DNA of 64,000 nt from Geodermatophilus sp. YIM 151500 (GTDB lineage Bacteria; Actinomycetota; Actinomycetes; Mycobacteriales; Geodermatophilaceae). Below, piece by piece: positions 15,828-24,129 of this stretch (its first letter is position 1; every line of letters starts with the position of its first letter). Made by a program: the position numbers and the translations under genes. The notes under the pieces are model-generated. The model saw only the letters and a list, made by a program, of their open reading frames with translations. It did not search any database and was not told where the DNA came from. The stretch is taken from positions 62,001-126,000 of the forward strand of contig NZ_JAOVZT010000001.1 of assembly GCF_025716945.1 (NCBI RefSeq), written 5' to 3'.

Positions 15828-16715
15828 TCAGAACCGCCGGCCGGACAGGACGCGCAACACCTGCCGCAGCGCGGGGTTGCGGGAGCCGCGGAGCCAGAGC
15901 AGGTGCAGCTCGACCGGCTCGGGCACGGGCAGGTCGAGGGCGACGAAGTCGACACCGGCGATGCCGAGCCGGGCCGCGGACGCCGGCACGAAGGCGATCC
16001 CCCGTCTCGCGGCGACCAGCCACACCATGGTGAGCACCTGGCTCACGGTGTGGACGACGTTCTCGTGGGCGAGCGGCACGGAGGTCACGACCAGGTCGTA
16101 GAAGTACCGCGCACTGACCGGCGAGTGCATGATCACCGGCTCGGCGGCCAGGTCGGCCGGTCCGGCGGGACGGCCGAGCCGGGTCAGGGGATGCCCCTCG
16201 GGCACCGCGACCAGGAGGGCCTCCCGGTGCAGCAGCCGGGAGTCGAAGGTCTCCCGGTCGAAGGGCGGGCGGCTCAGGCCGAGGTCGAGTTCCTCGCGCA
16301 GCAGCGCGGCGACCTGCTCCCGGGTGACGCCCTCCTGCAGGTCGATGTCGACGTCCGGCAGCTCCGCCGCGAGCACGTTGAGCAGCCGGCCGAGCGTCCC
16401 GTACGTCGACGCGGCGGTGAAGCCGATCCGCACCAGACCGGCCGAGCCCGAGGACACCCGGCGCGCCAGCGCCGGGGCCGCGTCGGCGAGGGCGAGCAGC
16501 CGGCGGGCCTCGGTGAGGAAGGCCTGCCCGGCGGCCGTGAGGACGACCCGGCGGTTGTCGCGTTCGAGCAGTTGCGCGCCGACGACCCGCTCGAGCTTCT
16601 GGATCTGCCGGCTGAGCGGGGGTTGGGTGATCTGCAGCCGCTCGGCGGCGCGCCCGAAGTGGAGCTCCTCCGCGACGGCCACGAAGCCGCGGAGCTGCTC
16701 CAGGGTGAACGCCAT
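15828..16715 (-). CDS. LysR-family transcriptional regulator of the aldarate locus
   Basis: The 295-residue protein has the LysR N-terminal winged helix ([23 protein letters not shown]...[13 protein letters not shown]) and a periplasmic-binding-like effector domain ([12 protein letters not shown] through LLRGS). It lies between the aldarate catabolic operon (same strand, downstream) and the divergent tctCBA transporter, the classic position for a LysR activator responding to the pathway substrate, probably an aldarate or its first intermediate. A 19-base palindrome 15 bases upstream of its start is its likely autoregulatory site. Confidence 0.9.
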
Positions 16716-16748: not shown

Positions 16749-16864
16749 TTGGACAGGCATGAGACGCCGTCCATACGCTCCGCTCGACCGAGATCCGGTG
16801 AGCCCGCTCACACCGACGGACCACCACCCCGCGCGTTCGACGAGCGCTCGACGAGGAGATGGAC

Positions 16865-17864
16865 ATGCCCAGCACCCACCACGCCCGGCGGACCGCGCTC
16901 GCGGCCGCAGGCCTCGCCGCGACCCTCACCCTGGCCGCCTGCGGCGGCAACCTCGGCGGCGGGAGCACCGAGGCCGGCGCCGACACCTTCCCCGACGGCC
17001 CCATCACGTGGCTGGTCGGCCAGGACCCGGGCGGCAGCACCGACCTGATCACCCGCGCCATCGCCGAGCAGCTCTCCGACGAGCTCGGCGTCCCCGTCAC
17101 GGTCGAGAACCGCCCCGGCGCCAACGGCGCGGTGGCCGCCCAGGAGCTCGCCGGCGCCGAGCCGGACGGCCAGACGCTGCTGACCTTCGTCGGGAGCCTG
17201 GCCTACATCACCCCCCTCGCGGTGAGCGAGGAGGAGGCGGTCGACATCAACGACTACGAGGTCGTCACCGGCCTCTCGCTCGACGACTACGTCCTCGTCA
17301 CCGCGCCGTCCTCGGGCTTCACCACCGTCGACGACCTCGCGGCGGCCGGGCGGCCGGTCACCTTCGGCACCACCGGCGTCGGCACCGGCAGCCAGCTCTC
17401 CCAGGAGCTGCTGTTCAACCAGGCCGGCATCGACGCCACCGCGGTGCCCTTCGACGGCGGGGCGCCCACGCTGACCGCCGTCCTCGGCGGTCAGGTCGAC
17501 GTCGCGTCCGTGCAGCTCGGCGAGGCGATCACCCAGATCGAGGCGGGCGAGCTGACCCCGATCGTCACCTTCGCCGAGGAGCGCCCGAGCTACCTCCCCG
17601 ACGTCCCGACCGCGATCGAGGCCGGATACGACGTGCCGGTGCAGCAGTCGCGCGCGGTCGTCGCGCCCCAGGGCACCCCGGAGGAGGTGCTCGACGAGCT
17701 GCGGACGGCCTTCGAGGGCGTCTTCGGGTCGGAGACCTACCAGACGTTCAACGAGGAGCGGCTGCTCACCCCCAACGAGCTCGGCGGCGACGAGCTGCAG
17801 GCGCAGTGGACCGAGAACCTCGAGCGCTACCGCACCGTGGTCGACGAGTACGGCATCGACCTGA
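16865..17864 (+). CDS. tctC: Tripartite tricarboxylate transporter substrate-binding lipoprotein (TctC), stop codon lost
   Basis: About 333 residues match a TctC/Bug-family binding protein: lipoprotein signal ending LAACGG, then ITWLVGQDPGGSTDLITR, ENRPGANGAVA, FGTTGVGTGSQLSQELLF and VAPQGTPEEV. It captures a carboxylate outside the membrane for TctAB; context suggests an aldarate. ATG 16865 has GAGGAG six bases upstream, whereas ATG 16859 sits against it. The family-like sequence ends at ...YGIDLS (17866) but no stop follows in frame until 18775, well inside tctA; a TGA is present one frame over at 17862-17864, taken here as the probable ancestral end. A mutation or sequence error is likely. 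Confidence 0.8.
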
Positions 17865-17876
17865 GCGGGACCGCGG

Positions 17877-17898
17877 GACCGACCCCGCGGGGTCGGTC
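17877..17898 (+). terminator. Intercistronic hairpin between tctC and tctB
   Basis: Perfect 10-base arms GACCGACCCC / GGGGTCGGTC with a 2-base turn lie between the expected end of tctC and the tctB start. Such hairpins after binding-protein genes usually act as partial terminators or mRNA stabilisers that raise binding-protein levels. Its presence supports the idea that tctC once ended before it. Confidence 0.6.
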
Positions 17899-17951
17899 AC
17901 GCGACCCGCACCCCGGGGCACGGCCCCGGCGACCGGAGCCGAGGAGGAGCC

Positions 17952-18614
17952 ATGACATCCGCCCGCAACGGCACGGCGCGGCCCTCCGGTCCCGGCGGCA
18001 CCCCCGCCGCCGGGACCGGCCCGGCCGGCGACCCGGCCGGCGACCCGGCCGGCGACCCGGTCCCCGCTCGGCCGGCGCCGCAGGACGGCGGCGTCCCCGC
18101 TGTCGCGGAGGCCGCCGACGAGGTCCTGGACGACGAGGTGGCCGCCGACGAGGTGCTGGAGGAGGAGCGCCCGCCACCCGCGGGCCCGGTCGCCAACGCC
18201 CTGATCGCCCTCGGCGTCATCGCCCTCGGCGTGGTGACGGCGGTCGGCGCCACCGCGCTGGAGCTCGGCACCGCCTCGGCGCCCCGCCCCGGGCTGTGGC
18301 CGTTCCTGATCGGCATCGCGCTGGTCGCCTTCGGCGTGGGCCTGCTGGCGCTGGTCCGCCGGACCGCCGACGCCGAGCGCTTCACGCGGGCGAGCTGGCT
18401 GGTCGTCGCGGGGCTGGCCACCATGGTCGCCTTCGTCGCGCTCGTCGGCGTGATCGGCTTCGAGATCCCCGCCGCGCTGCTGCTGTTCGTGTGGCTGCGG
18501 TTGCTCGGTCGCGAGGGCTGGCGGCTGTCGCTGGTCACCAGCGTCGCCGCGGTCGTCGCCTTCTACCTGGTCTTCGTCGTGGCCCTCTCGGTCCCGATCC
18601 CCCACCTGTTCTGA
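17952..18614 (+). CDS. tctB: Tripartite tricarboxylate transporter small membrane subunit (TctB)
   Basis: The 220-residue product has an 80-residue low-complexity, Pro/Gly/Glu-rich N-terminal tail and then four hydrophobic segments (ALIALGVIALGVVTAVGA, LWPFLIGIALVAFGVGLLAL, WLVVAGLATMVAFVALVGV, ASVA...FYLVFVVALS) with the APRPGLWPF motif of TctB proteins. TctB supports the large permease TctA. The N-terminal tail is unusually long and includes three tandem GDPA repeats coded by 12-base repeats. ATG 17952 follows GAGGAGGAG; tctA starts 11 bases after the stop. Confidence 0.88.
   Translation: MTSARNGTARPSGPGGTPAAGTGPAGDPAGDPAGDPVPARPAPQDGGVPAVAEAADEVLDDEVAADEVLEEERPPPAGPVANALIALGVIALGVVTAVGATALELGTASAPRPGLWPFLIGIALVAFGVGLLALVRRTADAERFTRASWLVVAGLATMVAFVALVGVIGFEIPAALLLFVWLRLLGREGWRLSLVTSVAAVVAFYLVFVVALSVPIPHLF
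18023..18060 (+). repeat. 12-base tandem repeat inside tctB
   Basis: Three copies of GGCCGGCGACCC in tandem code for repeated Gly-Asp-Pro-Ala in the cytoplasmic tail of TctB. Unit length is a multiple of three, so copy number can change without a frameshift. Confidence 0.7.
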
Positions 18615-18624
18615 GGAGTCAGCG

Positions 18625-20139
18625 GTGGATCTCGCCCCGGTGCTGGACGGCTTCGGCGTCGTCCTCGAACCCACGAACCTGCTCTACTGCCTGCTGGGCG
18701 TGCTCATCGGCATGCTCATCGGCGTCCTGCCCGGCCTGGGTCCGGCGGCCACCATCGCCATCCTGCTGCCGCTGACCCTCGGCATCGAGCCGGTCACCGC
18801 CATCATCATGCTGGCCGGCATCTTCTACGGCGCCCAGTACGGCGGGACGATCACCTCGGTCCTGCTCCGGCTGCCCGGCGAGGCCTCCTCGGTGGTGACC
18901 GTCTTCGACGGGCACGCGCTGGCGCGCTCCGGTCGCGCCGGGACGGCGCTGGGCATCGCGGCCATCGGTTCCTTCGTCGGCGGGACCGTGTCGGTCGTCG
19001 CCCTCTCCCTGGTCGCGCCGCTGGTGGCCGGCTTCGCCCTGGACTTCGGCCCTCCGGAGTACACGGCACTCGCCCTGCTGGGCATCCTGCTCGTCTCCAC
19101 GGTCAGCGTCGGCGACCGGCTCAAGGCGGTCACCGCCGCCGCCGTCGGACTGCTGCTGGCCACGGTGGGCCGGGACAGCTTCACCGGCGCCGAGCGCTTC
19201 ACGTTCGACAACCTGAACCTGGCCGACGGCCTGGACTTCGTGCCGATCGCGATGGGCCTGTTCGGCCTCGGCGAGATCCTCTACAACCTGGAGGAGCGGC
19301 ACCGGGCCGTGCAGGCCCCGTCGACGGTCGCCAACGTGTGGCCCTCGCGGGCGGACCTGCGCCAGTCCTCCGGCGCGATCGGCCGCGGCTCGGTCCTCGG
19401 CTTCTTCCTCGGCATCCTGCCCGGCGGCGGGGCGACCCTGTCCTCCCTGGCGGCCTACGCGCTGGAGAAGCGGCGGTCGAAGACCCCCGAGCGGTTCGGC
19501 AAGGGCGCGGTCGAGGGCGTGGCCGCCCCCGAGACGGCGAACAACGCCGCCGCGACGTCGTCGTTCATCCCGCTGCTCACCCTGGGCATCCCCGCGAACG
19601 CGACGATGGCGGTGATCTTCGGGGCGCTGCTCATCCAGGGCATCACGCCCGGTCCCCAGCTCGTCGACCAGGACCCCGAGCTGTTCTGGGGCGTGGTCAA
19701 CTCCATGTACATCGGCAACATCCTGCTGCTGATCATGAGCATCCCGCTGGTCGGCGTGTTCGTGCGCATCCTGCGGGTCCGCGCGACGGTGCTGGCGCCG
19801 ATCACGGTCCTCATCACGCTGATCGGCGTCTACACCGTCCGGAACAGCGTCTTCGACATCGGCCTGGTCGTCGTCTTCGGCGCCCTCGGCTACCTGATGA
19901 AGAAGCTCGGCTTCGACCCCGGGCCGCTCGTGCTGGCCTTCGTGCTCGGTGCCCTGCTGGAGAACAACCTGCGCCGGTCGCTGCTGATCTTCGAGGGCGA
20001 CCCGAGCGGCTTCCTGACCCGCCCGATCTCCGGGACGCTGCTGGTCCTGCTCCTGGTCGTGGCGGTCCTGCCTGTGATCACCAAGACCGTCGCCCGGCGC
20101 CGTGCCGCGCGCCCGGCCGAGACCGAGGAGCTCGTGTGA
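18625..20139 (+). CDS. tctA: Tripartite tricarboxylate transporter large permease (TctA)
   Basis: The 504-residue protein has about twelve hydrophobic helices and the duplicated TctA signature: IGVLPGLGPAATIAILLP near the N-terminus and LGILPGGGATLSSLAAY in the middle, plus GAQYGGTITSVLLRLPG and PLLTLGIPANATMAVIFGAL. It is the substrate-translocating subunit driven by ion gradient. Divergence from the aldarate catabolic operon around one LysR regulator makes aldarate uptake likely. GTG 18625 follows GAGGAG. Its stop overlaps the start of the universal stress gene. Confidence 0.93.
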   Translation: MDLAPVLDGFGVVLEPTNLLYCLLGVLIGMLIGVLPGLGPAATIAILLPLTLGIEPVTAIIMLAGIFYGAQYGGTITSVLLRLPGEASSVVTVFDGHALARSGRAGTALGIAAIGSFVGGTVSVVALSLVAPLVAGFALDFGPPEYTALALLGILLVSTVSVGDRLKAVTAAAVGLLLATVGRDSFTGAERFTFDNLNLADGLDFVPIAMGLFGLGEILYNLEERHRAVQAPSTVANVWPSRADLRQSSGAIGRGSVLGFFLGILPGGGATLSSLAAYALEKRRSKTPERFGKGAVEGVAAPETANNAAATSSFIPLLTLGIPANATMAVIFGALLIQGITPGPQLVDQDPELFWGVVNSMYIGNILLLIMSIPLVGVFVRILRVRATVLAPITVLITLIGVYTVRNSVFDIGLVVVFGALGYLMKKLGFDPGPLVLAFVLGALLENNLRRSLLIFEGDPSGFLTRPISGTLLVLLLVVAVLPVITKTVARRRAARPAETEELV

Positions 20140-20525
20140 CCGTCCTGCTCGGATACCTGCCGACCCCCGAGGGCGACGCCGCCTTCCTGGCCGCGCTCGG
20201 GGAGGCCCGCCGCCGGGGGGAGCGCCTCGTCGTGGTCAATTCGCCCCGCAGCGGGGCGCCGGTGAGCACCGAGGTCGCCCCGGACACCGCCGTCCGGACG
20301 ATGACCGCACGGGCCGAGGAGGCCGGCGTCGAGCTGGAGCTGCGGCAGGCCGCTCACGACGGTGACGCGGCCGACGAGGTCCTGCGCGTCGCGGGCGAGG
20401 CGGACGCCTCGGTGATCGTGATCGGCCTGCGCCGCCGGTCGCCGGTGGGCAAGCTGCTGATGGGCAGCACCGCGCAGCGCATCCTGCTCGACGCCGACCG
20501 CCCGGTGCTCGCGGTCAAGCCCTGA
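20136..20525 (+). CDS. Universal stress protein (UspA family)
   Basis: The 129-residue protein has the UspA fold: N-terminal strand VTVLLGYLPTPEG, LVVVNSPRSG, helix EVLRVAGEADASVIVIGLRRRSPVGKLLMGSTAQRIL and the final strand PVLAVKP. The G-2x-G-9x-G(S/T) ATP-binding motif is only partly kept (VGKLLMGSTAQ). The GTG start lies within the last codons of tctA (20136-20138 against stop 20137-20139), so it is translated with the transporter and may sense energy state or modulate it. Confidence 0.85.
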   Translation: MTVLLGYLPTPEGDAAFLAALGEARRRGERLVVVNSPRSGAPVSTEVAPDTAVRTMTARAEEAGVELELRQAAHDGDAADEVLRVAGEADASVIVIGLRRRSPVGKLLMGSTAQRILLDADRPVLAVKP

Positions 20526-20574: not shown

Positions 20575-21993
20575 TCAGGTCAGGGGCAGGCGCACCTGGA
20601 AGCGGGTGTCCCCCGGGGCCGAGCGCACCCGCAGGTCGCCGCCGTGCCGCTGGACGACGATCCGCCACGAGACGTCCAGGCCCAGCCCGGTCCCCTGCCC
20701 GACCGGCTTGGTGGTGAAGAACGGCTCGAAGATCCGCCGCCGCAGCTCCTCGGGCACGCCGGGTCCGGTGTCGGCCACCTCGACCAGGGCGCTGTCGCCG
20801 TCGCGGGCGGTGCGCAGGGTGAGGGTCCCCTCCCCGGCCATCGCATCGAGCGCGTTGACCACCAGGTTGGTCCACACCTGGTTGAGCTCGCCGGCGTAGG
20901 CCGGCACCCGCGGCAGCGAGCGGTCGTACTCCTTGACCACCCGGACGCCGGCGCCGATCTTGCGGCCGAGCATCACCAGCGTCGCGTCCAGGCCGGCGTG
21001 CAGGTCGGTCGGCTGGTGCGGCGCGCGGTCCAGCTGGGAGTACTGCTTGGCCGCGTCGACCAGCGCGGTGATGCGGCCGGTGCTGTCGGTGATCTCCGCG
21101 AGCAGCGTCTCGGTCTCGACGGTGTACGCCAGCCAGCGCAGCGCCGGTTCCAGGAAGGACGGCGCCACGGTGGCCGCCACCCGGTCGAGGTCGCCGGCGT
21201 CCAGTCCGGCACCCACGAAGACGGCGGCGAGCTCCCACGGCGAGGCGATCCCGCGCTGCTCCAGCCAGTCGCCCAGCTCGTCCTCGCGGTCGGACCGCTG
21301 CAGCGCGGTCAGCTCCACACCGCCGTCGATGCGGGCGACGAAGTCCTCCTGCAGCCCGGTCAGGGAGCGCAGGACGGCACCGTCGATGCGACCGTCGGAC
21401 AGCAGCGCCAGCTTGTGCCGCATCCCGGCGAACCGGTCGCGGAGCGCGGCGGTGGCCCGCGCCGCGGCCGCCGCCGGGTTGTTCAGCTCGTGGGTCAGGC
21501 CGGCGGTCAGCTTGCCGAGGGCGAGCAGCCGCTCCCGCTGGCCGACCAGCTCGGCCGCGCTGCGCTGCCCGACGAACATCCCCTCCAGCAGGTGCACCGC
21601 CATCGGGTACCACCGCCGGAACACGGTGGCGAACTGCTCGGCGGGCAGCGCCAGGAACCGGCAGTCGGTGAGCGCGGTGACGCTGCCGCCGTAGACCTGG
21701 TCGAGCCGGTCGCCGAAGTAGAACTGCACGGCGCCGGCGTAGACCCCCGGGGAGTCGGTCCGGACGATCTCCACGTCGTCGCCCCCGACCCGCCGCGACA
21801 TCCGCAGCGCGCCCTCGAGCAGCACGTAGAAGCACTCGGCCGGCTCGCCCTCCCGGTAGAGGGCCGTGCCGGCGGGGCAGCCCACGACGTCACCGTGCTC
21901 GGCGACCCACGCCAGCTGGTCGTCGTCGAGGTCCTCGAAGAGGAACAGCTCGCGCAGCTCGGCCGGTCCGAGCCGCGCGGCCGGGCCGCTCAC
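20575..21993 (-). CDS. Histidine kinase with N-terminal cyclic-nucleotide-binding domain
   Basis: The 472-residue protein starts with a cNMP-binding/CRP-type beta-roll (residues about 15-130: [33 protein letters not shown], and an MSRRVGGDD strand), then a dimerisation domain with the phospho-acceptor His in [12 protein letters not shown], and a HATPase_c domain with N-box [11 protein letters not shown]1 [10 protein letters not shown]-box EPFFTTK and G2 GTGLGLDVS. No membrane segment is present, so it acts in the cytoplasm. Its GTG start overlaps the stop of the receiver-flavoprotein gene (GTGA at 21990), making the two a coupled pair. The THELNNP variant matches kinases that pair with atypical receivers. 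Confidence 0.9.
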
Positions 21994-23648
21994 CGCTCCC
22001 CCAGGTAGCGGTGCACGAGCGTGACCGCCATGGCGCCCTCCCCGACCGCCGAGGCGACCCGCTTGACCGAGTCGGCCCGGACGTCACCGGCGACGAAGAC
22101 GCCCGGCAGGCTCGACTCCAGGAAGTAGGGGTCGCGCTCCAGCGGCCAGCCCGCCGGCGGGCGGCCCTCGCGCAGCAGGCCCGGGCCGGTCGGGATGAAC
22201 CCCCGCCCGTCCCGCAGCACCTGCCCGTCGAGCCAGTCGGTGCGCGGCGCCCCGCCGATGAAGACGAACAGGTGGGACGCCGGCACCGTCGTCCGTTCTC
22301 CCGTCCGGGCGTCCTGCAGGGTGAGCGCCTCCAGGTGGCCGTCGCCCCGCGCCGCGGCCACCGTCGTGCAGGTGTGCACGGTGACGGTGTCGATCCCGGA
22401 CAGCTGCTCGACCAGGTAGTGCGACATCGAGCTCTGCAGCGACGAGCCGCGCACCAGCAGGTGCACCGCGCGGGCGTACCGCGCGAAGAAGACCGCCGCC
22501 TGGCCGGCGGAGTTGGCCCCACCGACCACGTACACCTCCCGGCCGGCGCACTCGGCCGCCTCGGTCAGCGCCGAGCCGTAGTACACGCCGCGGCCGGTGA
22601 GGCCCTCCGCGCCGGGCACGTCGAGCTGGCGGTACGACACACCGGTGGCCAGGACGACGGCGTGCGCGGCGATGCTGCCGCCGTCGGCGAAGCGCAGCAC
22701 CCGCTTGGGGCCGTGGACCTCCAGCGCCACCGCGTCGCGGGCGAGCAGCAGCTCGGCGCCGAACCTGCCCGCCTGCCGCCGCGCCCGCTCGGCGAGCTGG
22801 CCGCCGGAGACGCCGTCCGGGAAGCCGAGGTAGTTCTCGATGCGGCTGCTCTGGCCGGCCTGGCCTCCGGTGGCCGACCGCTCGACGAGCACCGTCCGCA
22901 GCCCCTCGGACGCCCCGTACACGGCCGCGCCGAGCCCGGCCGGGCCGCCGCCGACCACGACCAGGTCGTAGAAGTCGGCGGTCGGCTCGACCCCGAGGCC
23001 GACGACTGCGGCGACCTCCGCCTCGGACGGCGAGCGCAGCACCCGGGCGTCCGGCGTCACGACGACCGGGACGTCGTCCTCGGAGGCCCCGGCGGCGGCC
23101 AGCAGCCGGCGGGCCTCCGGCTCGTCGACGCCGTACCACCGGTAGGGGACGGCGTTGCGCGCGAGGAAGTCGCGGATCCGGAACGACGGCGCCGACCACC
23201 GGTGCCCCACCAGCTTGACGTCCTCGACGGCCGTGTCGCGGCTGTCCCGCCAGGCCTCGGTCATCGCGTCGACGACCGGGTAGAGCTTCTCCTCCGGCGG
23301 GTCCCACGGCTTGAGCAGGTAGGCGTCGACGTCGACGAGGTTGATCGCCTGGATGGCCGCGTCGGTGTCGGCGTACGCGGTCAGCAGGCAGCGTCGCGCC
23401 CGCGGGAACAGGTCCATCGCCTGCTCGAGGAACTCGATGCCGTTCATCGCCGGCATCCGGTAGTCGGCCAGCAGGACCGCGACCCGGTCGCCGCGGAGCT
23501 TGAGCTCGCGCAGCGTCTCGAGCGCCTCCGCGCCGGAGCCCGCGCGCAGCACCCGGTGGTCGTCGCCGTAGCGGCGGCGCAGGTCGCGGGCGACCGCGCG
23601 GGACACCCCCGGGTCGTCGTCCACGCTGAGCAGGACCGGCTTGCCCAT
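21990..23648 (-). CDS. Response regulator receiver fused to thioredoxin-reductase-like flavoprotein
   Basis: The 552-residue protein joins three parts. Residues 1-130 are a receiver domain with acidic pocket DDD (10-12), acceptor Asp 62 (LLADYRMP), Thr 90 and Lys 113 (LLKPWDP). Residues about 145-215 resemble a thioredoxin/glutaredoxin-like segment (RIRDFLARNAVPYRWYGVD) without a CxxC. The rest is a two-domain FAD/NADPH oxidoreductase with VVVGGGPAGLGAA, TGGQAG, VYVVGGANSAGQAA and FVAGDVRADSVKR. The CATC disulfide of thioredoxin reductase is replaced (GVYYGSALTEAAEC), so it cannot be a classical thioredoxin reductase. ATG 23648 has GGGAGG upstream. Confidence 0.9.
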   Translation of the reverse strand: MGKPVLLSVDDDPGVSRAVARDLRRRYGDDHRVLRAGSGAEALETLRELKLRGDRVAVLLADYRMPAMNGIEFLEQAMDLFPRARRCLLTAYADTDAAIQAINLVDVDAYLLKPWDPPEEKLYPVVDAMTEAWRDSRDTAVEDVKLVGHRWSAPSFRIRDFLARNAVPYRWYGVDEPEARRLLAAAGASEDDVPVVVTPDARVLRSPSEAEVAAVVGLGVEPTADFYDLVVVGGGPAGLGAAVYGASEGLRTVLVERSATGGQAGQSSRIENYLGFPDGVSGGQLAERARRQAGRFGAELLLARDAVALEVHGPKRVLRFADGGSIAAHAVVLATGVSYRQLDVPGAEGLTGRGVYYGSALTEAAECAGREVYVVGGANSAGQAAVFFARYARAVHLLVRGSSLQSSMSHYLVEQLSGIDTVTVHTCTTVAAARGDGHLEALTLQDARTGERTTVPASHLFVFIGGAPRTDWLDGQVLRDGRGFIPTGPGLLREGRPPAGWPLERDPYFLESSLPGVFVAGDVRADSVKRVASAVGEGAMAVTLVHRYLGER

Positions 23649-23781
23649 CGGGCCTCCCGTCACGGCGGTCCGGGCGGCGGCGGACGCCGGCCGGCGGACA
23701 GCACGGCGGCGGCGGGCTTGCGGCGACCACCCCGCGCGCGCAATCTCACGCTAGACCGTCGGCGTGGACACGGGAGGGGCC

Positions 23782-24129
23782 ATGACGGCACCGGCCGGCA
23801 TCGACGTGACGGCCCCGCCCTCCGGCGCGGGGTGCCTGGAGTGCGAGGCGACCGGCGGGTGGTGGTTCCACCTGCGCCGGTGCGCGCAGTGCGGGCACGT
23901 CGGCTGCTGCGATTCCTCGCCGTCCCGCCACGCGCGGGCGCACGCCGCGGACACCGGCCACCCGGTGATCCGCAGCTTCGAGCCCGGCGAGAGCTGGTTC
24001 TACGACTTCACCACCGAGCGGATGCTGCGCGGGCCCGAACTCGCCCCGCCGCAGCACCACCCGCTCGACCAGCCGGCCCCCGGGCCGCGCGGCCGGGTAC
24101 CGGCCGACTGGCAGGTCCACCTCCGCTGA
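23782..24129 (+). CDS. UBP-type zinc finger protein
   Basis: The 115-residue protein is almost entirely a ZnF-UBP domain: CLEC, RRCAQCGHVGCCDSS, HARAHAADTGHPV, then FEPGESWFYDF, giving the Cys/His zinc ligands and the aromatic residues that bind a C-terminal Gly-Gly tail in eukaryotic ubiquitin-specific proteases. Bacterial members are stand-alone and of unknown function. It is divergent from the receiver-flavoprotein/kinase pair with 133 bases between. ATG 23782 follows GGGAGGGG; an upstream in-frame GTG (23764) lacks such a site. Confidence 0.88.
   Translation: MTAPAGIDVTAPPSGAGCLECEATGGWWFHLRRCAQCGHVGCCDSSPSRHARAHAADTGHPVIRSFEPGESWFYDFTTERMLRGPELAPPQHHPLDQPAPGPRGRVPADWQVHLR

Follow-up and report, generated by a model that had tools for sequence, protein, structure and literature searches.

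The locus studied here raises the question of what a histidine kinase, a receiver-bearing flavoprotein and a stand-alone bacterial zinc finger do together. The three genes lie in a 64,000-nucleotide stretch of the genome of Geodermatophilus sp. YIM 151500 (contig NZ_JAOVZT010000001.1, positions 62,001 to 126,000; assembly of 4.77 Mb in 53 contigs), which is called the window hereafter. They are termed HK, for the sensor kinase with an N-terminal domain of the CRP/cyclic-nucleotide (cNMP) type; FP, for the flavoprotein; and ZF, for the UBP-type zinc finger. First, the module formed by these genes is real. Second, FP combines a receiver with a glutaredoxin fold and a thioredoxin-reductase fold and has lost both dithiol sites. 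Third, and here we lean only slightly to one side, the module would be a two-component system with an oxidoreductase as its output; this dithiol-free enzyme would be controlled by phosphorylation, use NADPH and flavin adenine dinucleotide (FAD), and work with ZF.

A first-pass annotation, made from the sequence alone, had described the kinase and flavoprotein genes as overlapping by four bases and the zinc finger gene as divergent across 133 bases, and both observations stand. The overlap is the GTGA common to the start of HK and the stop codon of FP (21990-21992, minus strand), and the distance of 133 bases applies with ATG starts; alternative in-frame GTG codons are found at 23663 for FP and at 23764 for ZF, and it is from these upstream codons that the residues of both proteins are numbered. 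Pfam assigns HK a cNMP_binding and a HATPase_c domain, FP a Response_reg and a Pyr_redox_2 domain, and ZF a zf-UBP domain, with every match above its cut-off.

That these three genes are linked, as had also been claimed, is supported by their neighbourhood in other genomes. First, among the best 80 of a larger set of loci from a scan of named actinobacterial genomes (the named loci), HK lies within 200 bp of FP and on the same strand in 78, and ZF lies within 4 kb of FP in 39. Since ZF is downstream and co-directional in 38 of these 39 loci, and divergent in one, the usual gene order is FP-HK-ZF, and the window, with its divergent ZF, is rearranged. Second, a search of 41 genomes recovered FP orthologues, with 55-81% identity, through the family and the order; HK is beside FP at 23 of the 26 loci with an FP of the receiver (REC) type, the exceptions being degenerate-receiver paralogues (L036-L038), and ZF is found at nine of the 26 within the 1.5 kb flanks examined. 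The neighbourhood of FP and HK is more than chance. Third, a phylum sample of 197 genomes was drawn evenly and FP hits were taken at about 325 bits or more, which left out Cys-bearing proteins, fragments and ordinary reductases; ZF occurs in 46 of these genomes, FP in 42 and both in 34, with FP only in eight (odds ratio 50.6, Fisher p 1.5e-20, relatedness ignored), and in 13 of the 197 the two lie no more than 10 kb apart, several assemblies being fragmented. Fourth, two plasmid searches gave 86 and 87 records with ZF, and among the 77 that were read, which were not dereplicated and whose count is swollen by near-identical Rhizobium plasmids, FP is within 3 kb of ZF in 64, distant in four and without a row in nine; the hosts are Rhizobium, Agrobacterium, Burkholderia, Paraburkholderia, Rhodococcus and Streptomyces, proteobacteria included. 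Finally, a single open reading frame (ORF) with cNMP, HATPase_c and zf-UBP domains by Pfam represents an HK-ZF fusion (L147). The linkage of a UBP finger, a thioredoxin-reductase-like flavoprotein and a cNMP-type domain was seen in both genome and plasmid comparisons, well beyond the source genome, and because the trio recurs in many bacteria the module looks like a real redox signalling unit.

The flavoprotein had been read as a receiver joined to a thioredoxin-reductase fold. Both are present, but this reading omitted a middle domain, whose cysteines are lost as well. The stretch between the two has no Pfam match by itself; its profile, however, aligned by hhalign with the N-terminal domains of seven Cys-bearing homologues (probability 99.4, E 6e-22, 34% identity), and the N-terminal domain of the one homologue of the seven that was tested, L032, is Pfam Glutaredoxin. 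In the AlphaFold model the middle domain adopts a b-a-b-a-b-b-a fold, with a predicted local distance difference test score (pLDDT) of 91.6, and its top structural matches are the thioredoxin-like BC3987 (3zit, VIA-align Z 12.7), cGrx1 and NrdH. The active-site WCPDC of glutaredoxins is replaced by WSAPS. The first of its cysteines is present in all seven Cys-bearing homologues and lost in 160 of 160 FPs, which include members of the REC, degenerate-receiver (RECdeg) and cNMP groups; Ser takes its place in 125/129 REC, 9/9 cNMP and 14/22 RECdeg members, and the second cysteine is retained in 4/129 REC and 1/9 cNMP members.

At the reductase site, the replacement of the CATC disulfide that had been pointed out earlier is confirmed, with YYGSALTEAAEC in its place. 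The CxxC is missing in 165 of 172 aligned sequences, window FP included (some genomes being represented twice in this alignment), and the other seven are glutaredoxin-reductase proteins in which no REC or cNMP match was found; six of them also have both glutaredoxin-site cysteines, and one has CPDS. In all 160 FPs the first reductase cysteine has become Gly, Ala or Ser, and Tyr362 and Arg535 are invariant, these positions being Phe/Ser and Gln in the seven Cys-bearing homologues. FP scores 206 bits with the NCBIfam model TRX_reduct, under its cut-off of 343, and no alternative CxxC that would restore thioredoxin reductase activity is seen, the lone Cys372 being a single cysteine. Since the reductase CxxC and the glutaredoxin active-site cysteines are both gone, the usual dithiol relay is unavailable to FP. 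A separate thioredoxin reductase with CATC is encoded in the source genome, close to a thioredoxin-like sequence with WCGPC (L004), and therefore FP is not the sole such reductase there.

Cys372 brings in a first alternative, in which FP would be a disulfide reductase that pairs this residue with a cysteine of a partner such as ZF, or with a low-molecular-weight thiol on the glutaredoxin fold. The residue is retained in 120/129 REC and 9/9 cNMP members but in 1/22 RECdeg members, and on the Rhodococcus plasmid L126 a trxA gene adjoins both ZF and a cNMP-type FP; however, it lies nine residues past the first-Cys site, it is Thr in L019, and there is no CxxC. We consider this explanation very unlikely.

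The FAD and pyridine-nucleotide glycines are retained throughout the FP family, and AhpF (4o5q) is the top Foldseek match of FP. These motifs would also suit a ferredoxin, flavodoxin, quinone or small-molecule reductase, similar to the thioredoxin-reductase-like ferredoxin/flavodoxin reductases (FNRs) and placed under a receiver, with ZF as a separate co-regulated stress protein. FNRs of the same fold without CxxC are indeed described in the passages of PMC10294844 at hand, where neither a receiver nor a glutaredoxin-fold domain is mentioned for them. A gene for NAD kinase, moreover, adjoins the module in eight of the 80 named loci; it lies on the upstream side of FP in six of them and immediately follows HK in the other two. 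This neighbour is a pointer to NADPH. Against this stand the ZF linkage, recurrent on the FP tree and in several phyla, and the neighbours: no recurrent neighbour other than the trio is found in more than 6/34 genera, NAD kinase being among them, and none of these families, which were named only in part, was recognised as ferredoxin or flavodoxin (40 loci, unfiltered ORFs). An FNR-like enzyme with an unrelated ZF is in our opinion unlikely. The NAD kinase loci are L048, L060, L065, L068, L070, L077, L085 and L106, and in L085 and L106 the gene follows HK directly, at the position occupied by ZF elsewhere.

The receiver had been called complete, and it is: the Asp 62, Thr 90 and Lys 113 of the ATG count correspond to Asp67, Thr95 and Lys118 of the GTG count. 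A tree of FP, made with a quick method and with some long branches, resolves four groups, namely, Cys-bearing (support 100), cNMP-type, degenerate-receiver (98) and intact-receiver (94). Because these groups separate, the dithiols differ across a single branch. On the FP tree, the linkage of ZF changes 13 times or more (37 linked, 56 not). In the sampled loci, HK is adjacent to 23 of 23 FPs whose receiver D/T/K residues are intact and to 0 of 18 whose residues are not (p 4.9e-12), a match that amounts to one contrast on the tree and not to 41 independent cases; this table omits L159, which lies at a contig end, L143, whose receiver is cut, and lower-scoring loci. Such a match is what coupling predicts. 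No HK is adjacent in the sister clade of degenerate-receiver FPs, which includes L149, L153-L171 and L036-L038, and among these L166 has an adjacent ZF. In one FP clade a cNMP-type domain stands in place of the receiver, and its nine members have GE but lack PRxA.

The fusion of a receiver to the N-terminus, its replacement by a cNMP-type domain in one clade, and the loss of both dithiol sites with retention of the nucleotide motifs might also point to a redox sensor and not an enzyme, in which FAD and NAD(P)H occupancy sets the shape of FP and tunes HK or ZF through the receiver. We regard this as quite unlikely. A sensor of this kind has no known output, Pfam detecting neither a DNA-binding nor a cyclic di-GMP domain in the trio, and the invariant Tyr362 and Arg535, unlike the residues of the Cys-bearing relatives, fit altered chemistry equally. 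An oxidoreductase and not a DNA-binding protein is probably the best explanation for the output of the module.

On the side of the kinase, an alignment of 114 rows showed that the HELNNP H-box, the N-box and the G-boxes are retained in HK, and we take His168 to be the phospho-acceptor, a role known from the family. The residues GE...PRxA are the canonical pocket residues of cyclic-nucleotide-binding domains. The N-terminal domain that had been assigned to the cyclic-nucleotide type does match Pfam cNMP_binding, but this pocket motif is absent from the window HK, which has neither Glu at the usual GE position nor PRxA; the deeper-branching HKs of L147, L148, L151 and L152 have GE...PRxA. A conserved stretch of about 100 residues (HK residues ~190-290), unusual for such kinases, separates the H-box from the second dimerisation helix. 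The number of HK genes varies, with one FP flanked by two HKs in L120 and L122, and a single FP followed by three tandem HK genes in L141 and L142.

As for the zinc finger, ZF retains the Cys and His residues of a UBP finger with two zinc ions, presumably the metal ligands. In UBP fingers that bind the C-terminus of ubiquitin, the Arg of the CGR position has a role in this binding. The site, which aligns with the GCGR of USP16, is Asp50 in ZF and Asp in 67 of 69 aligned fingers. Since this Arg is replaced by Asp, the earlier suggestion that the finger binds a protein C-terminus is disfavoured as far as a ubiquitin-like C-terminus is concerned. For the same reason we deem it extremely improbable that the module belongs to a protein-tagging pathway in which ZF would read a ubiquitin-like modifier by its C-terminal tail: the zf-UBP fold is common to ubiquitin-specific proteases, yet no tagging-pathway gene was recognised among the recurrent neighbours. 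The closest solved relative is a hypothetical protein (PDB 2ida), which belongs to the same bacterial finger subfamily with GCCD, from which the window ZF differs by its extra tail.

Taken together, the mechanism towards which we lean would start with a signal at the CRP-type domain that triggers HK, which would then phosphorylate Asp67 of FP. In FP, with FAD and NAD(P)H, probably NADPH, bound as its motifs predict, the receiver and the docked domain of glutaredoxin fold would then shift with respect to the flavin, and this shift may gate the flow of electrons to a non-disulfide acceptor. ZF would be the dedicated protein partner of FP and HK, which it may bind as an adaptor, regulator or target. 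In a more far-reaching version, which we put forward tentatively, this would be a widespread two-component system with phosphorylation-gated electron transfer, whose flavoenzyme derives from, or is sister to, a glutaredoxin-thioredoxin-reductase fusion that lost both dithiol centres and gained a receiver, so that NADPH electrons reach a new kind of acceptor, with the charge-reversed UBP finger as the docking or target protein.

Several points weigh against this phosphorylation-controlled oxidoreductase, besides the single contrast behind the match of receiver and kinase. First, ZF is more than 4 kb away or absent in 41 of the 80 named loci, 12 of the 46 genomes with ZF in the phylum sample have no FP, and the HK-ZF fusion was found in no other of 35 genomes of the family of L147. 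Second, a zf-UBP domain is also the tail of Na+/H+ antiporters, and for this reason ZF is not dedicated to FP: the source genome has a second one, which forms the C-terminal part of a Na+/H+ exchanger that also carries a TrkA_N domain (L002; Pfam). Third, the retained Cys372 leaves room for thiol chemistry of another sort. Fourth, the AlphaFold model of FP (mean pLDDT 78, predicted template modelling score 0.62) is weak by the flavin, with pLDDT below 50 at residues 263-286 and about 62 at 361-370. This weak model resembles the flavin-reducing form of Lactococcus lactis thioredoxin reductase (5mh4, TM by target 0.90) more than the other form (5mjk, 0.61), but given its quality near the flavin we draw no conclusion from this comparison, or on what occupies the disulfide position. 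By sequence reading, UBP fingers as C-terminal domains of Na+/H+ antiporter-like proteins also occur in L188, L189, L191 and L193.

The combination had been said to have no described function. A limited literature search found no paper on the trio, but the statement overlooks a published prediction and the naming of similar fusions. Burroughs, Iyer and Aravind in 2011 reportedly predicted in silico that bacterial ZF-UBP domains act in a novel cyclic nucleotide-dependent redox signalling system. The likeness to that system is that genes for UBP fingers are linked both to thioredoxin-reductase-like flavoproteins and to cNMP-type domains, and the differences are that in the window the cNMP-type domain is on a histidine kinase and lacks the pocket residues, and that FP bears a receiver. 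Low-Mr thioredoxin reductase and AhpF share with FP the fold and the FAD and nucleotide motifs, whereas FP lacks both dithiol centres and has a receiver in front. Response regulators in which a receiver is fused to a thioredoxin-reductase fold are named, as REC-thioredoxin reductases, a 'Mycobacterium-like combination' (PMC5847659). FP differs from these by the missing CxxC and the additional cysteine-less glutaredoxin-fold domain; the passages at hand speak of thioredoxin reductase and do not mention the loss. The cysteine-less glutaredoxin domain, the double dithiol loss, the match of receiver and kinase, and the link to NAD kinase were likewise not met in the literature passages available.

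One FP-type protein of a plasmid is annotated as 'thioredoxin-disulfide reductase', and REC-thioredoxin reductases are annotated by fold. If the family is indeed unable to reduce disulfides, such annotations mislead, and a widespread signalling unit with enzymatic output would stand behind fold-based names. The module is also a tractable system, both for studying the role of bacterial UBP fingers and for asking if electron flow can be switched directly by a two-component system.

Table 1. Features of the HK, FP and ZF genes, in window coordinates.
Feature	Position	Strand	Basis or remark
HK, sensor histidine kinase with N-terminal CRP/cNMP-type domain	20575-21993	-	472 aa, GTG start; ORF calling, Pfam
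HK HATPase_c domain (residues 369-471)	20581-20889	-	Pfam
HK His168 in HELNNP, predicted phospho-acceptor	21490-21492	-	motif conserved; alignment of 114 HK rows
HK cNMP-type domain (residues 40-126)	21616-21876	-	Pfam cNMP_binding
FP, receiver, glutaredoxin-fold and thioredoxin-reductase-fold flavoprotein	21990-23648	-	ATG start 23648; ORF, Pfam, AlphaFold
FP thioredoxin-reductase-fold domain	21996-22970	-	FAD motif GxGPAG, pyridine-nucleotide motif GGANSAG and GD motif retained
YYGSALTEAAEC at CATC disulfide position	22548-22583	-	Gly363 at first Cys, Tyr362, lone Cys372
FP glutaredoxin-fold domain (residues 149-222; about 146-226)	22998-23219	-	hhalign, AlphaFold, VIA-align
WSAPS at glutaredoxin WCPDC active site (Ser157, Ser160)	23184-23198	-	alignment, hhalign
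FP receiver domain	23295-23630	-	Pfam; Asp67 23463-23465, Thr95 23379-23381, Lys118 23310-23312
Divergent FP-ZF intergenic region	23649-23781	.	133 bases, using ATG starts
ZF, stand-alone bacterial UBP-type zinc finger	23782-24129	+	ATG start 23782; ORF, Pfam
ZF zf-UBP domain	23833-24018	+	Pfam PF02148, 52.0 bits (cut-off 22.7)
ZF Asp50 at Arg site of ubiquitin-type fingers	23911-23913	+	alignment
ZF C-terminal tail, conserved PGPxGRVPxDW-like end	24031-24126	+	alignment

The region between FP and ZF yielded no convincing conserved operator in an alignment of five of seven Geodermatophilaceae-type gaps, two of more than 300 bases being left out, and a scan of it gave no sigma-70-like promoter and no terminator. 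In Streptomyces, the promoter-like CATACGATGG is kept ~60-130 bases upstream of FP in eight of eight upstream regions (L051, L062, L072, L073, L079, L081, L093 and L119). A reading as antiphage defence was rejected, PADLOC giving no match for HK, FP or ZF. On the plasmid of Rhodococcus sp. PD04 (L126:1-7924), dnaK, grpE, a J-domain gene, cbpM, clpB and trxA run co-directionally into ZF and a cNMP-type FP, and this run of chaperone genes suggests a stress setting. A universal stress protein gene adjoins HK in the window (~20140-20525, plus strand), and another adjoins FP in Streptomyces fungicidicus (L119). Elsewhere in the window, at 16859-20139 (plus strand) and 15828-16715 (minus strand), genes of the tripartite tricarboxylate transporter type (TctA confirmed) lie beside a LysR regulator.

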